This document shows, piece by piece, positions 25,740 to 31,078 of a DNA stretch of 46,440 nucleotides. Source of the DNA: Flavobacteriales bacterium (lineage in GTDB: Bacteria; Bacteroidota; Bacteroidia; Flavobacteriales_D; Sanyastnellaceae); assembly GCA_028823145.1 (NCBI GenBank), contig JAPKCA010000005.1:1-46440 (forward strand). The letters are read 5' to 3'. The notes beneath the pieces were generated by a model, which was not told the origin of the DNA, ran no database searches, and worked only from the letters and a program-made list of their open reading frames with translations. Made by a program: the position numbers and the translations under genes. Position 1 is the stretch's first letter. Each line of letters starts with the position of its first letter.

Positions 25740-25762
25740 CCCATAATTTGATTAACAATCTC

Positions 25763-26596
25763 ATGGCCAAGCACTGCATCCTCGTTCCTATGGATTTCAC
25801 AAGTGTTAGTGATATCGCCTTAGAACATGCATTTGTCGTAGGGAAAGCATTCAGCAGCGACATTCTTTTGCTTCATATCATCGGTTCGAAAAAAGAAATG
25901 CCTGATGCGCGCAAGCGCATGGAAGGCCTCCTAGAACGATTGGGGCAAGCTTATCCCTTTAGCTTGAGAACAGCTATTCGAATCGGGAGCATTTTCGAAG
26001 ACATTGATGACGTCGCGGTAGAGCAAGACGCCGATTTGGTCATCATGGGAACCCATGGCCTCAAGGGCATGCAGTTTATCACTGGAGGGCGATCGCTCCG
26101 CATTGTCACAAACTGCTCTACTCCATTCATCATTACCCAAGAAAAATCCATCAGGGAAAGCGGATACGATGATATCGTGGTTCCATTGGATTTACATCAA
26201 GACACCAAGCAAAAGCTTTCTACTGTGTCTGAAATGGCCGCTTATTTCAAAGGGCGCGTGCACATCATCAGCCCGGCGGAATCAGACGAGTTTTTGCAAA
26301 ATCAACTTTTGCGAAACATCGAATTTGCCAAAGAATATCTTACACAGAAGAAAATCGAATTCACAGTGAAAATCTCCGGGCACAGCGCTAGCGCTTTCGT
26401 CAAAGATGTCATTCGCTATGCAGCGGCCATTGAAGCAGATTTGATCAGCATCATGAATTTGCATGAGAAGAGCTTAATGGGCATTTTGGGGCAAAGTTAT
26501 GAGCAGCAAATCATTACCAACGAAGCTCAGGTTCCTGTACTTGTCATCAATCCGATTGAAACACGGGTGATCCGTGGTTCGGTGTTTGCCCAGTAA
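25763..26596 (+). CDS. Universal stress protein family, two tandem UspA domains
   Basis: A 277-residue cytoplasmic protein of two Usp folds. Domain 1 (1-132) begins KHCILVPMDFTSVSDIALEHAF and has the ATP-binding type sequence MGTHGLKGMQFITGGRS near residue 95, close to G-2x-G-9x-G-S/T. Domain 2 (about 135-270) begins DDIVVPLDLHQDTKQKL and ends VPVLVINPI, but its SIMNLHEKSLMGILGQSYEQ stretch lacks that glycine pattern, so it may not bind ATP. ATG 25763 is preferred to the in-frame TTG 25748 because the fold starts right after it. It is divergent from the ClC gene and converges with the phosphatase gene. Confidence 0.9.
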   Translation: MAKHCILVPMDFTSVSDIALEHAFVVGKAFSSDILLLHIIGSKKEMPDARKRMEGLLERLGQAYPFSLRTAIRIGSIFEDIDDVAVEQDADLVIMGTHGLKGMQFITGGRSLRIVTNCSTPFIITQEKSIRESGYDDIVVPLDLHQDTKQKLSTVSEMAAYFKGRVHIISPAESDEFLQNQLLRNIEFAKEYLTQKKIEFTVKISGHSASAFVKDVIRYAAAIEADLISIMNLHEKSLMGILGQSYEQQIITNEAQVPVLVINPIETRVIRGSVFAQ

Positions 26597-26599
26597 TAT

Positions 26600-28420
26600 T
26601 CAAATGCGGACCCCGATGACCAATACGTCATCGACTTGTTCTTCTGATCCTCTCCAATCATCAAAGGCTGAGGCCAAAGCCTCTTCCATGCCCGATGCGG
26701 GAAGGGATGCGATTTGAACCATCAATTCCCGGAATCTTTTTCGCATGAATTTCTTGCCATTGGGACCCCCGAATTGATCGGCAAATCCATCCGTGGCAGC
26801 AAAAACCACATCGCCCTTCACCAATTGGATGGTTTGCATTTCATACGTCTTTGTGCCGGGCTGAAAAGACGCAATGGCCATTTTGCTCGGCTTGAGCTCC
26901 TGAAGCATGCCTTTCCGCACCATATAAAGAGGGCAGTTGGCACCACTGTATTCCAGCTCCATGCGCTCACGATCAATACTGACCATTGCCAAATCCATTC
27001 CATCTTGAACGTATTCCTCGGCTTGGTCATTTTCAAACCCCTGAGGCCGCAATAGATCACAAGCGGCACGGTTCAATTGATCTAAAACCTTATCGGGTTG
27101 GGTGTAAACTTTCGTCACCCTCTCCAGGGCATGGTGCCCGATTAAACTCATAAAGGCGCCGGGCACCCCGTGTCCCGTGCAGTCCACCGCCGCAAACATT
27201 CGAATCCTCCCCACAGCGTGAAACCAGTAGAAATCTCCTGATACCACATCTCGTGGACGGTAAAAAACAGCGGCTTCTTCAAATACCAACGAACGATCCA
27301 TCGCGGTAGGCAAAATTGCTTGCTGGATTCTTTCCGCATAGTTAATGCTGTCCTTTAAATCGCCATACAAGGATTCGATGTGTGCTTTTTGACGCTCTAC
27401 CTCTGCCGTCCGCATCTGGACTTTTCCCTCCAATTCCATTTCGTTGGAGGCCAAATCATCTCGCATCTTCACAATGGCATGACCCAATGCATCGTCCTCA
27501 CTCAGCGGCACATAATCCGCTCCAAAATTTCCACCACCTACTTTCAAGGAAAATTCACGGGTTCGATTGAGGCCGTCTGCTAATCGGTTCACCGCTACAG
27601 CCATTTCGCCAATTTCATCCGACGAAATGGGCACCTCATGCTCAAGTGGTACACCTCGCCCCATGTACAGCAATGCCCGCTTCAAAGAGTTTACAGGACC
27701 TACAATGGACCGCGTCACGGCCCATGCAATGATTATTCCCAGTATCAAAACCCCCAATGCCACATTTCCCGCATACAACTGCAGCCGATCCCCTAGCGCT
27801 CCCATATCAGCTGTGGATGCTGTCAATGCATCCGTTTGCGCCTCTGACAAAGCATCAAAATGGTTGCGAATTGAAGCGGTGAACAATGGAATACTCGAAC
27901 CATCCAATGCGTAATATTCCGCATCCATCATGGCCAATGGATCATCGTAAGCCTGGAAGGACGGAAGCAATCGTGTGATTTCGATGTACGCCAAGAACAA
28001 ATGCTCGATATCGGTTTCCATTGAATCAAATCGAGCCTGAAGATCCGGACCCCACAAGGGGACCAAATGACGAATTGAAGCCAATTTCTCCGGAACCTCC
28101 TCATCCATCAAATGCAATAAATTCAATTTTTCCGGGTCCTTCGGGCCGGATTGCACCGAAATCCAATGCCGTATCAAAATACGCGTTTCAGAAACTGACC
28201 GATCCAAATCATCCAATGACTGGATGCTCGGCGTCAAAACCCCATCAATGTGTTGCCCCAATCCTCGACTCTCCTCCAGGGTATGGCGTGTCAATAAAAC
28301 CAACGCACCAACGGCAACCCCGAATAAGCCAAATCCAAGAGAAATGCGCCATCCAATGCCCCATTTACCTCGTTTTTGGCCCAACTCCGTTGTCGGAGAA
28401 GTGCTTCCGTTGCGAATCAT
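26600..28420 (-). CDS. Membrane HAMP-domain SpoIIE/RsbU-type PP2C phosphatase
   Basis: A 606-residue signalling protein. Order: short cytoplasmic start, membrane helix (about 23-44), a periplasmic mostly helical sensor region (45-215), second helix (about 216-236), HAMP (about 237-290), coiled coil (about 320-370, LEGKVQMRTAEVERQKAHIE), and a PP2C/SpoIIE phosphatase domain from about 385. Metal-binding acids are intact: VVSGDFYWF (Asp396), DCTGHGVPGAFMS (Asp413), DGMDLAMVSI, ATDGFADQFGG (Asp544) and QVDDVLVIG. It should dephosphorylate a serine or threonine phosphoprotein, typically an anti-sigma-factor antagonist, but no STAS or anti-sigma gene is in the window. It is the last gene of the yfiR-TPR-phosphatase run. 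Confidence 0.92.
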   Translation of the reverse strand: MIRNGSTSPTTELGQKRGKWGIGWRISLGFGLFGVAVGALVLLTRHTLEESRGLGQHIDGVLTPSIQSLDDLDRSVSETRILIRHWISVQSGPKDPEKLNLLHLMDEEVPEKLASIRHLVPLWGPDLQARFDSMETDIEHLFLAYIEITRLLPSFQAYDDPLAMMDAEYYALDGSSIPLFTASIRNHFDALSEAQTDALTASTADMGALGDRLQLYAGNVALGVLILGIIIAWAVTRSIVGPVNSLKRALLYMGRGVPLEHEVPISSDEIGEMAVAVNRLADGLNRTREFSLKVGGGNFGADYVPLSEDDALGHAIVKMRDDLASNEMELEGKVQMRTAEVERQKAHIESLYGDLKDSINYAERIQQAILPTAMDRSLVFEEAAVFYRPRDVVSGDFYWFHAVGRIRMFAAVDCTGHGVPGAFMSLIGHHALERVTKVYTQPDKVLDQLNRAACDLLRPQGFENDQAEEYVQDGMDLAMVSIDRERMELEYSGANCPLYMVRKGMLQELKPSKMAIASFQPGTKTYEMQTIQLVKGDVVFAATDGFADQFGGPNGKKFMRKRFRELMVQIASLPASGMEEALASAFDDWRGSEEQVDDVLVIGVRI

Positions 28421-28462
28421 GTTGGCAATTTAACGCGAGAACCTGAGGCTATGGCGTATACA

Positions 28463-29371
28463 TCATGGACGTTTTTCAATCAACCGGTCGATCGCATCAC
28501 GGTAGCGGGAAGATTCTTCCTGTTGACTCAACGCATAATGGATGGTCATCAAGCCTTTCAATGTCTCTAGTCGATTTGGCTTGAGTAAATGAGCCGCTTC
28601 CATGACCGGCAATGCTTGTTCAAACAAACCAACACAAGCTTCTTGAATCTCCATGAGCTCAAACATGGACGTTTCATGGTTAATCCGCTTCAATTGACGG
28701 ACGCCTTGGTTGTATAGGGTGATCGCCAAATTGTAACGTCCCGGATAATCCTTTGGGACCAATTCCAATGCCACTGAATAATGTGCGACAGAGCGTTCAA
28801 ACAGGATGGTTTCCAATGCTAAATCCCGTCCCTCCTGTCGGTCCAGCAGCAGTCCATTGGCCTGCCCCAAATACCTATACAAATCTGCCTTTTGTCCCGT
28901 GACGTTGGCCATCGGGTCCAAATTCAAAATAATGGCCTCGTACCTTCCAAACAAAGCCAGCGCTTCTTCATCCGATCCCTCCGTAAACCCTTCGATTCGA
29001 TCAATGGCATCCCGGAAAAAACTGCGTGCCAAAAAATCCAATGCCGCACGAATGAGTGCGTCATCTTCCCGATTTGGCCCCATAGACAAGGCGCGATCCA
29101 AACTATGGACAGCCCCCAGTCGTTCCGGTGCATTTAATTCACTGCTTCCCGATGCTTTGTGCAACTCCTTTTGAACATATCCCAGGACATACCACGCATG
29201 TGAGTCAGCTTGCCAAGGCATCTTTTTCACCTCCGGTTCTAGTATGATTAACGCTTGCGCCCAATCTCCACGCTGACCCAATGCCACCGCACGGTCCACC
29301 GGGGATTGCTGTCCGAAGACTGCAGTCGAGCAAACGACAAAACACATCATCAGAAAAGATTTGACACTCAT
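28463..29371 (-). CDS. Secreted TPR-like repeat protein
   Basis: A 302-residue protein with signal peptide MSVKSFLMMCFVVCSTAVFGQQ followed by helical repeats of TPR/Sel1 type, clearest at VDRAVALGQRGDWAQALIILEPEVKKMP, SVAHYSVALELVPKDYPGRYNLAITLYNQG and ACVGLFEQALPVMEAAHLLKPNRLETLKGLMTIHYALSQQEESS. It is probably a periplasmic scaffold; no enzyme motif is visible. The ATG at 29371 overlaps the stop of the YfiR-like gene (ATGA), and the phosphatase gene begins 42 bases after its own stop. Such coupling suggests that all three work together, perhaps linking the periplasmic YfiR-like protein to the phosphatase sensor. Confidence 0.82.
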   Translation of the reverse strand: MSVKSFLMMCFVVCSTAVFGQQSPVDRAVALGQRGDWAQALIILEPEVKKMPWQADSHAWYVLGYVQKELHKASGSSELNAPERLGAVHSLDRALSMGPNREDDALIRAALDFLARSFFRDAIDRIEGFTEGSDEEALALFGRYEAIILNLDPMANVTGQKADLYRYLGQANGLLLDRQEGRDLALETILFERSVAHYSVALELVPKDYPGRYNLAITLYNQGVRQLKRINHETSMFELMEIQEACVGLFEQALPVMEAAHLLKPNRLETLKGLMTIHYALSQQEESSRYRDAIDRLIEKRP

Positions 29372-29973
29372 TGAACCGATTTTACTGCCCAAGACATGAT
29401 CCTATTCCCAATCAACACCCCCCTTTCTGCTGCTTTCTCGGCATTGATTTCATAGCGCATGAGATGACCCACGGCAACAAAATTGATCAATGCTCCTCTG
29501 TCCAAAGCAGACTCTGAATTCGCTACCAAAAGCACAGGGTCATTCGCAATTCGTTCGGCCAACGCTTCCAAATTTATTCCTTCCAACTCAGCATAGATCA
29601 AGTGAGCAAATACATCTGCCGCAAGCGCATCAGACGAGGAGTAGTATACAATTTCCAATGATTGAGCCCCTATGAATTTTAGAGCATATTTATCGACCAA
29701 CTCATCAAACAACCGCTCATTGCCAATGATGGCCATGCGAAAAGGGCCTGATTTGACCTCTTCAGGCCATTCGTTCGCAGCGGCAAAATGAAACAAGAAG
29801 TTGGCCTTCATGATGGCCTGGGTATCGGCATCGTCGATTGCCCCCCCCTGCTGCTGCGGCACAAGCACCCAGCCGACAATCAATACCATGATTGCTGAGC
29901 ACAGGCCAACCATTGTTCGCATTTTCAGCGAACGCCTGAGGCCGAATTGCTTATGCTTGGGCGCCATGCTCAT
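29368..29973 (-). CDS. YfiR-family (DUF4154) periplasmic protein
   Basis: A 201-residue protein with a membrane/signal segment (MVGLCSAIMVLIVGWVLV, about 21-38). It then shows the YfiR pattern: MKANFLFHFAAANEWPEE, GPFRMAIIGNERLFDELV, SLEIVYYSSSDALAADVFAHLIYA, DPVLLVANSESALDRGALINFV and MRYEINAEKAAERGVLIGNRIMSWA. In Pseudomonas YfiR is a periplasmic repressor of the HAMP-containing diguanylate cyclase YfiN. Here the downstream HAMP protein has a PP2C output. A G8 tract lies just after the signal segment. ATG 29973 is preferred to a TTG at 29979. The gene begins 9 bases after the ferritin stop, so it may share that transcript. Confidence 0.85.
   Translation of the reverse strand: MSMAPKHKQFGLRRSLKMRTMVGLCSAIMVLIVGWVLVPQQQGGAIDDADTQAIMKANFLFHFAAANEWPEEVKSGPFRMAIIGNERLFDELVDKYALKFIGAQSLEIVYYSSSDALAADVFAHLIYAELEGINLEALAERIANDPVLLVANSESALDRGALINFVAVGHLMRYEINAEKAAERGVLIGNRIMSWAVKSVQ
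29841..29848 (-). repeat. G8 homopolymer tract in the YfiR-like gene
   Basis: Eight G on the coding strand directly after three CAG codons, encoding Gln-Gln-Gln-Gly-Gly at residues 40-44, just past the signal segment. A one-base slip would abolish the protein. Confidence 0.85.
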
Positions 29974-29982
29974 GCACAAAAA

Positions 29983-30486
29983 TCAATTGGCTGATTCTTT
30001 ACCAAGTCCAACTATATCCCGATCAAACAAATAAAGCGCCCCGCGATCTCCGCCAGCTAAGGCCAATTTATCCAATAACATCCGAGCCATAGATTCTTCC
30101 TCTATTTGCTCAGCTACATACCACTGCATGAAATTATACGTCGTGTAATCCTTGATGCTGAGGCATTGATCGACTACCGAATTGATGCTGGCAGTGACCG
30201 AGGTTTCATGAGCCAAAATGGATCGGAAAATTGCTTCGACACCATCATATGTCTCCACAGGCGCTTCCAGCGCTGGAACATTGGCCAACCCACCGCGTTC
30301 GTTGACAAACTGCATCAATTTAAGCATGTGCATACGCTCTTCTTCAGCTTGGGCATAGAGAAAGGTTGCTGTACCATCAAACCCATTTGTTTCCGCCCAT
30401 ACAGCCATCGCTAAATAGGTGTGGGAACTTTGGGCTTCGAGCTTGATTTGCTCATTGAGTGCTGTGGCTATTTGTTCGTGAAGCAT
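29983..30486 (-). CDS. ftnA: Ferritin (non-heme, FtnA-like)
   Basis: Iron-storage protein that oxidises Fe2+ and deposits it in a 24-subunit shell. The 167-residue four-helix protein shows ferroxidase ligands in the expected places: Glu in LNEQIKLEAQSSHTYLAM, the helix YAQAEEERMHMLKLM (Glu-Glu-x-x-His), ILAHETSVTASINSVVD, and FMQWYVAEQIEEESMARMLLDKL. No heme-binding methionine of the bacterioferritin type is apparent. ATG 30486 is preferred over an in-frame TTG at 30495. Upstream lies the GbsR-type gene; a TAACTTCG sequence (minus strand, 30510-30503) is a weak promoter candidate. The YfiR-like gene follows after 9 bases. Confidence 0.94.
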   Translation of the reverse strand: MLHEQIATALNEQIKLEAQSSHTYLAMAVWAETNGFDGTATFLYAQAEEERMHMLKLMQFVNERGGLANVPALEAPVETYDGVEAIFRSILAHETSVTASINSVVDQCLSIKDYTTYNFMQWYVAEQIEEESMARMLLDKLALAGGDRGALYLFDRDIVGLGKESAN

Positions 30487-30541
30487 GGGAGGCAATTTAA
30501 TCCGAAGTTAAGGTTTCCTTTTTTTCGTTTTGGAGTCGCAA

Positions 30542-31078
30542 TCAATTTCTTCGCAAACTGCGGAGGAACCATTGCTCCCACCACCGTTCGTCTTCTAAAA
30601 GAACACGAGACATAATAGTGTCAACGGCTTGAGCTTGCTCCGTTATCGCTTGCAACGTTTGTGCCAAACCCCGTGCATTGGGCTCATCGCAATGGTCTTT
30701 CCACGATGCCGACCAATCACTCAAGCTCAGAAGAGGCTGAAGTTCTCGTTTTCTTCGTTCCCGGGCAATGCAAATCATCATCTGCCATGGATCTTTTTCA
30801 GCCAAAAACGTGACCTGCCGCGTTCCCATCACTTTCAGGGAATAAACCAATCCCCATTCCACCAATCCCTGCAATTGGGTGTGTGCACTGCCACGACTTA
30901 AATCCAATGCGTCCATGACGTCATCCGTTGTCACGGGTTTCGCATGAGAAAGGAGCAAACCATGAATGGAGGCCATGGCCGGAGGAATCCCCCATGAGGA
31001 GGCCGCCTCACGCCAATGGGCAATGAATTCTTTCCGGATTTCTTCGAAATCCTTCCTCGATGAATGAGCGCGCTGCAA
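30542..31078 (-). CDS. GbsR/MarR-family transcriptional regulator
   Basis: A 178-residue winged-helix protein. Typical GbsR-like features: EEIRKEFIAHWREAASSWGIPPAMASIHGLLLSHAKPVTTDDVMDALDLSRGSAHTQLQGLVEWGLVYSL (about 12-82), the helix-turn-helix being LDLSRGSAHTQLQGLVEWGL, then the wing MGTRQVTFLAEKDPWQM and a helical dimerisation region. No ATG is available near the N-terminus, so the start is taken as TTG 31078, just after the oxidoreductase stop at 31088. It is the third gene of the kbl-oxidoreductase run and may control it; B. subtilis GbsR senses choline, but no betaine genes are present here. Confidence 0.87.
   Translation of the reverse strand: MQRAHSSRKDFEEIRKEFIAHWREAASSWGIPPAMASIHGLLLSHAKPVTTDDVMDALDLSRGSAHTQLQGLVEWGLVYSLKVMGTRQVTFLAEKDPWQMMICIARERRKRELQPLLSLSDWSASWKDHCDEPNARGLAQTLQAITEQAQAVDTIMSRVLLEDERWWEQWFLRSLRRN

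Follow-up and report, generated by a model that had tools for sequence, protein, structure and literature searches.

A conserved gene run encoding a YfiR-like protein, a TPR-type protein and a SiaA-type phosphatase in a Flavobacteriales genome

YfiBNR and SiaABCD of Pseudomonas aeruginosa are the closest described relatives of the system reported here (YfiBNR and its modular relatives, PMC3375315; SiaABCD, PMC7647112 and PMC8457831). YfiR and SiaC have been studied as controls of cyclic di-GMP (c-di-GMP) and biofilm, and according to the sections of the sources used here, both act on diguanylate cyclases in P. aeruginosa (PMC3375315, PMC8457831). The YfiR-YfiN pair was described as a modular one whose output can be GGDEF-EAL, Hpt or a kinase; no phosphatase output is named in the sections used (PMC3375315, 2012). 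In this study, a run of genes was analysed in a 46,440-nt stretch of DNA from a Flavobacteriales bacterium (assembly GCA_028823145.1, contig JAPKCA010000005.1, positions 1 to 46,440), the whole of which is called the window. Three genes of the run, referred to as the triad, encode a periplasmic YfiR protein, a secreted tetratricopeptide repeat (TPR) protein and a membrane protein with a HAMP domain and a SpoIIE-type PP2C phosphatase domain.

The gene order of the triad is beyond chance, and we hold with very high confidence that it represents a real module, conserved in marine bacteria. Its PP2C domain is SiaA-type and stands behind HAMP. Modularity of YfiR was already published in 2012. Searches of the open-access literature for YfiR/DUF4154 together with SpoIIE, PP2C or Bacteroidetes found no paper on this system in the parts of the long result lists that were seen.

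The triad and its phosphatase

The run occupies positions 26600-30486 on the minus strand, in the transcription order ferritin, YfiR, TPR protein and HAMP-PP2C protein. The first gene (29983..30486) encodes a non-haem ferritin (PF00210, E 2.6e-38) and is separated by 9 nt from the gene for the YfiR/DUF4154 periplasmic protein (29368..29973; PF13689, YfiR/HmsC-like, E 5.5e-21). In the four bases 29368-29371, which read ATGA on the minus strand, the stop of the YfiR gene is overlapped by the start of the TPR gene (28463..29371), whose product is a protein of approximately 300 residues belonging to a family of its own (alignment A1, n = 26), with a signal peptide read by eye. After a gap of 42 nt follows the gene for the membrane phosphatase (26600..28420), composed of a helical periplasmic sensor, HAMP (residues 235-285; Pfam E 7.8e-7), a coiled coil and the PP2C domain (residues 409-605; SpoIIE E 2.5e-20). 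A sequence-only reading of this DNA had described three same-strand genes with an ATGA overlap, a ferritin gene 9 bases upstream and an intact PP2C domain, and all three points were borne out by the coordinates, the Pfam matches and the metal site described below. A scan of the six proteins encoded at 25748-31078 found neither a YfiB OmpA-like outer-membrane lipoprotein nor a STAS or HATPase protein. Promoter and terminator scans, which suit Bacteroidota poorly, showed no excess in the region (4 + 4 sites against 6.1 + 5.7 expected).

The metal-binding aspartates of the phosphatase (D396, D413, D544 and D597/D598) do not vary across an alignment of 16 proteins. Two of the 16 come from outside triads, namely a YfiR-PP2C fusion and the second SpoIIE protein of the genome. 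When the PP2C domain was compared with the PDB by sequence, SiaA of P. aeruginosa (6k4e) was matched with an E value of 6.4e-39 and the next entry with 0.58. Comparison by fold also gave SiaA, with a Z score of 32.9 (VIA) versus 23.5 for the next entry and a Foldseek E value of 3.0e-19; nearly all rows of the VIA alignment fall within residues 368-606, so that the sensor fold was hardly probed there. The only other SpoIIE protein of the genome was nearest to Rv1364c (1.5e-11), with SiaA at 6.4e-7.

In the structure model of the phosphatase (mean predicted local distance difference test score, pLDDT, 80.6), long helices span residues 22-88, 96-117, 125-151 and 176-254, and are read as a probable helical sensor lying between two putative membrane helices. 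A CHASE8/PAS sensor of the YfiN type was ruled out: the model is helical, and the 14 sensor halves searched gave no match to CHASE8. The name 4HB_MCP is weak for this region, having been matched by 1 of the 14 members with an E value of 0.063 and by one GAF-type relative below the cut-off (5.6e-5); helical is the safe term.

For YfiR, a profile built from 15 DUF4154 proteins, to which triads contributed 9, matched YfiR crystal structures (best E 6.1e-6); the window protein searched as a single sequence had no PDB match with an E value of 5 or less. An aromatic residue occupies the position of YfiR F162 in all 15 of these aligned proteins as read by eye, which fits a conserved binding surface. 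Pfam matches of the TPR protein to TPR families were below threshold, the best being TPR-S with 22.8 bits, where the cut-off is 27.6. Structure prediction gave an all-helical array with a mean pLDDT of 95.3, and Foldseek returned TPR superhelices from the PDB with query TM-scores of about 0.2-0.4, low enough that these matches support the repeat class only. The protein may be a modulator of YfiR, in the place held by YfiB in Pseudomonas.

Distribution of the triad and exchange of outputs

The window belongs to a genome of 2.26 Mb in 196 contigs, 85% complete (G000). In a set of 60 genomes of relatives, this one included, DUF4154 was matched in 52 genomes (55 matches), and all 54 loci other than our own were fetched with DUF4154, not the triad, as the anchor. 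According to local profiles, a member of the same TPR family comes after YfiR in 49 of the 54, with both genes on one strand. The sensor-phosphatase gene came next in 47 of these, the other two (L061 and L075) stopping at contig ends, and the PP2C part was visible in 44 of the 47, with L040, L045 and L049 cut by contig ends. The remaining five loci were of other kinds. YfiR is fused in frame to PP2C in L083 (DUF4154 E 5.7e-18, SpoIIE E 3.2e-23), is divergent from a sensor-PP2C gene in L079 and adjoins a CHASE8 hybrid kinase in L034 and L042; in L084, the local profiles recognised no partner for it.

In the wider order, 142 of 249 genomes, representing 46 of 64 genera, gave a match to the profile of the TPR family (A1) at E<=1e-20. 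The count of 142 is an upper bound because one match (L158, TPR frame of 423 residues) proved to be a generic one with no triad. This was the exception among 20 loci picked from the survey, of which 19 carried the triad (L171 being the same locus as L087). YfiR, TPR protein and sensor were also found together in 17 of 21 loci from named records (L172-L192) taken from the best 80 of 114 relatives; at least three of these loci (L172, L173 and L192) repeat genomes already counted, so that the counts overlap. The exceptions were L174 and L183, cut by contig ends, L186, with a GAF output, and L191, which has neither YfiR nor TPR protein. A survey of the phylum with the TPR profile (296 genomes, few of them from relatives in other orders) gave no sign that the triad occurs in other orders: matches at E<=1e-8 occurred in 59 genomes, full-length ones in G000 and G025 only and partial ones in the rest. 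The limit of the triad to the order is blurred by some named metagenome-assembled genomes in the list of relatives, whose titles carry no order.

Some variants of the arrangement were observed. Two tandem genes of the TPR family lie between YfiR and the phosphatase in G028 (L078:7417-9307) and G027 (L080). In genus g10 (L087, L164-L167), whose member G030 showed no SiaC, the triad is intact except that its YfiR has diverged strongly (scores 29-45). In G045 (L083:2731-8626), a TPR-SpoIIE gene, a second SpoIIE gene (TPR by eye) and the YfiR-SpoIIE fusion are adjacent on one strand, the first and the last being identified by domain scan.

Homologues of the sensor that lack a PP2C match were found in ten loci (L193-L202), records of Marivirga, Fulvivirga, Pseudochryseolinea, Bacteroidales and Salinivirgaceae among them, and YfiR directly precedes the sensor homologue in seven. 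No member of the TPR family was found in these loci among non-overlapping open reading frames (ORFs), a procedure by which a miss is possible, and L199 starts at a contig end. All five sensor proteins scanned (L186, L193-L196) contained GAF, with HAMP above the cut-off in three and PAS in one. Since YfiR occurs with the same sensor and another output in other Bacteroidota, YfiR and the sensor form the core, and PP2C with the TPR protein is the version present here. Output exchange can be seen here in clear form, one core of YfiR and sensor being joined to PP2C in one lineage and to GAF in others. YfiR is further fused to a histidine kinase in L142 by domain scan and in L143-L146 by eye; these loci come from ten of 48 matches picked for fetching with long frames favoured, so they give no frequency.

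The sequence-only reading had advised a survey of Bacteroidota genomes for these three genes as neighbours, which they are in the 49 loci among the relatives, and had suggested that YfiR may act here on a phosphatase in place of a cyclase. The tie between YfiR and a phosphatase was upheld by those loci, the fusion in L083 and the presence of a phosphoprotein switch in the genome; a sensor of the YfiN CHASE8/PAS type was not.

Putative partner proteins and alternative explanations

The genome encodes one SiaC (E 1e-36), whose gene overlaps that of a SiaB-like DUF6272 protein (E 3.4e-17; L092). SiaC of P. aeruginosa has its phosphothreonine site at T68, according to the part of PMC7647112 used here, and the residues NTS around this position are kept. 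Among the 60 genomes, SiaC was present in 53 and DUF6272 (SiaB) in 56. Both SiaB and SiaC were missing from the four genomes in which no SiaA-type PP2C was found (SpoIIE protein absent in G042 and G047, RsbU-like in G044 and G052), and SiaA-type PP2C and SiaC co-occurred with a Fisher p of 7e-5, uncorrected for relatedness; sorting of genomes into SiaA-type and RsbU-like was our own reading of score and length among the matches listed. In G056 (L070), the strand of the triad carries, approximately 6 kb further downstream, genes for SiaB, a SpoIIE protein whose front part looks TPR-like by eye, and SiaC in one run. From these sequences, SiaC appears to be the likeliest partner of the phosphatase, with the SiaB-like protein as the kinase. 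A phosphoprotein partner switch, as proposed by the sequence-only reading, does exist in the genome, but its likeliest members are SiaC and the SiaB-like protein, not STAS and anti-sigma proteins.

GGDEF was the cyclic di-GMP domain searched for (EAL, HD-GYP and PilZ were not searched), and no match was found in the 85% complete genome or in 58 of the 60 genomes; two genomes had a match, one of them above the cut-off. A GGDEF protein elsewhere in the genome is therefore unlikely as the output, and because no diguanylate cyclase was found, one is unlikely to be the target of SiaC here. The end target probably differs from a diguanylate cyclase. In the part of PMC8457831 used here, DUF1987/SiaC proteins are suggested to modulate adjacent proteins generally.

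Other genes were seen around the SiaB and SiaC family members. A protein of approximately 955-1036 residues is encoded convergent to or beside the SiaB/SiaC pair (L092:4049-6976, L094-L101, L104-L107 and L109), and the one at L092:4049-6976 proved to be an ABC transporter. A further DUF6272 gene, apart from SiaC, is carried by many relatives (L252-L263); the ORF beside it in L260-L263 looks PorP/SprF-like by eye, judged from a sequence motif.

The triad may thus be pictured as a switch from envelope to cytoplasm. Periplasmic YfiR, together with the secreted TPR protein, would bind or release the helical sensor of the HAMP protein, and HAMP and the coiled coil would relay the change to the SiaA-type PP2C domain. 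This domain would remove the phosphate from the threonine of SiaC, to be restored by the SiaB-like kinase, and free SiaC would then act on a target that is probably not a diguanylate cyclase. Contact between YfiR and the sensor, like the role of SiaC as substrate, is something we infer. That YfiR gates the phosphatase is highly likely, and SiaC is a likely substrate of the PP2C domain; the steps are not independent, and the whole chain from YfiR and TPR protein through a SiaA-type phosphatase to SiaC is favoured on balance. The chances are even for the broader proposition that YfiR repression and a SiaA/B/C threonine switch have been joined across an order of Bacteroidota without c-di-GMP, with the TPR protein replacing YfiB and a target of SiaC that is not a cyclase.

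Several observations weigh against this chain. SiaB and SiaC are on another contig, so that type and co-occurrence are what connects them with the triad. Association of the triad itself with SiaC is weak (47/50 versus 6/10, p 0.011), and SiaC was not seen in three triad genomes, G011 (80% complete), G020 (93%) and G030 (98%, with a divergent YfiR). The role given to the TPR protein is predicted from gene order. The YfiR equivalog NF053586 was not reached (14.4 bits, cut-off 85), and the better model NF053591 (TOL_0243) was also below its cut-off (70.1 bits versus 125). The full-length SiaA equivalog NF038263 scored 214.3 bits against a cut-off of 700, with the best stretch at residues 310-606; this is expected because the sensor half differs. 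The phosphatase model has a predicted template modelling score (pTM) of 0.45, which makes its domain placement uncertain. To these is added the occurrence in the genome of a STAS match in a 132-residue frame and a HATPase_c_2 match in a 149-residue frame, both on contigs other than that of the triad, which were detected in the genome-wide look for STAS and anti-sigma partners advised by the sequence-only reading.

These two matches allow another explanation, in which the phosphatase acts on an RsbV-like STAS protein and hence on an anti-sigma factor, in a classical partner switch not involving SiaC. SpoIIE-type phosphatases often act on STAS proteins, which counts in its favour. Such action is covered in the part of PMC9239204 used here. 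However, the PP2C domain of the triad is of the SiaA type and it is the other SpoIIE protein of the genome that stands near the RsbU of Rv1364c; moreover, G044 and G052, whose only SpoIIE protein is of this other type, lack SiaB and SiaC, and we regard the STAS explanation as unlikely. It is very improbable that the genes are adjacent for joint expression only, YfiR and the TPR protein never touching the phosphatase. The ferritin gene shows that unrelated functions can share a run, but the YfiR-PP2C fusion of L083, the divergent pair of YfiR and sensor-PP2C genes in L079 and the seven of the ten loci L193-L202 in which YfiR immediately precedes this sensor, there joined to another output, all speak for a functional tie.

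A further explanation concerns the signal: YfiR and the TPR protein would bind iron, haem or a redox signal, and the operon would report iron status with ferritin as a co-regulated output. Of the 49 triads of relatives, 38 have a same-strand ferritin gene upstream, 33 of them at a distance of no more than 200 nt; the wider order set has it in 18 of 19 triads. A TonB-dependent receptor gene adjoins YfiR in all six other loci scanned (L034, L042, L142, L143, L145 and L146; ORFs chosen by eye), where YfiR goes with a histidine kinase (L034, L042 and L142 scanned; L143, L145 and L146 by eye). On the other side, 11 of the 49 triads have no ferritin gene in the fetched stretch, and the cysteines are few. 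Among 45 triad YfiR proteins, our own included, counted from window residue 50 on, 17 had no cysteine, 22 had one, 5 had two and 1 had three, the commonest column being filled in 11 of 45; five of the 50 triad proteins, missed by the first gene caller, were left out. Pseudomonas YfiR has four conserved cysteines (PMC3375315, in the part used here), and as these are missing, the redox route known there does not extend to the triad. The conserved ferritin neighbour supports shared expression, and co-expression with ferritin is not sensing. The sequence-only reading had named iron or redox status as a possible input; we consider the iron explanation rather improbable, somewhat more so than the STAS one.

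Outside the run, the locus is flanked at window:23916-26596 by two further genes. A universal stress protein gene (25748..26596, plus strand; PF00582, E 1.7e-19) is convergent to the phosphatase gene, and the neighbouring gene is presumably chloride-channel-like. By hand counting, the former, a conserved flank, lies downstream of the triad on the opposite strand in 34 of the 49 triads of relatives and the latter downstream on the same strand in 25.

Comparison with known systems

A conserved operon that apparently joins YfiR and SiaC, in a lineage where no diguanylate cyclase was detected, suggests a general use for both. The role of SiaC outside c-di-GMP signalling thereby becomes directly testable. 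If the broader proposition given above is true, the tie of these two signalling parts, general in themselves, to c-di-GMP would be the work of Pseudomonas.

The locus resembles YfiBNR in having a periplasmic YfiR with a DUF4154 match beside an inner-membrane HAMP protein, and in keeping the aromatic residue at the F162 position. It differs in its sensor, which is helical instead of the CHASE8/PAS of YfiN, in its output, which is PP2C instead of GGDEF, GGDEF-EAL, Hpt or histidine kinase, and in having a TPR protein, no YfiB and none of the conserved YfiR cysteines. With RsbU/RsbV/RsbW it shares a PP2C phosphatase that would free a phosphoprotein, whereas its PP2C domain is nearer to SiaA than to RsbU and its six locus proteins include no STAS or HATPase partner. 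SiaABCD has in common with it a HAMP membrane protein with a SiaA-type PP2C domain, as well as a SiaB-like kinase and a SiaC with the phosphothreonine motif in the genome. Unlike SiaABCD, the 85% complete genome has no GGDEF match and hence no SiaD, siaBC lie outside the operon, and YfiR and the TPR protein are present as extra periplasmic parts.

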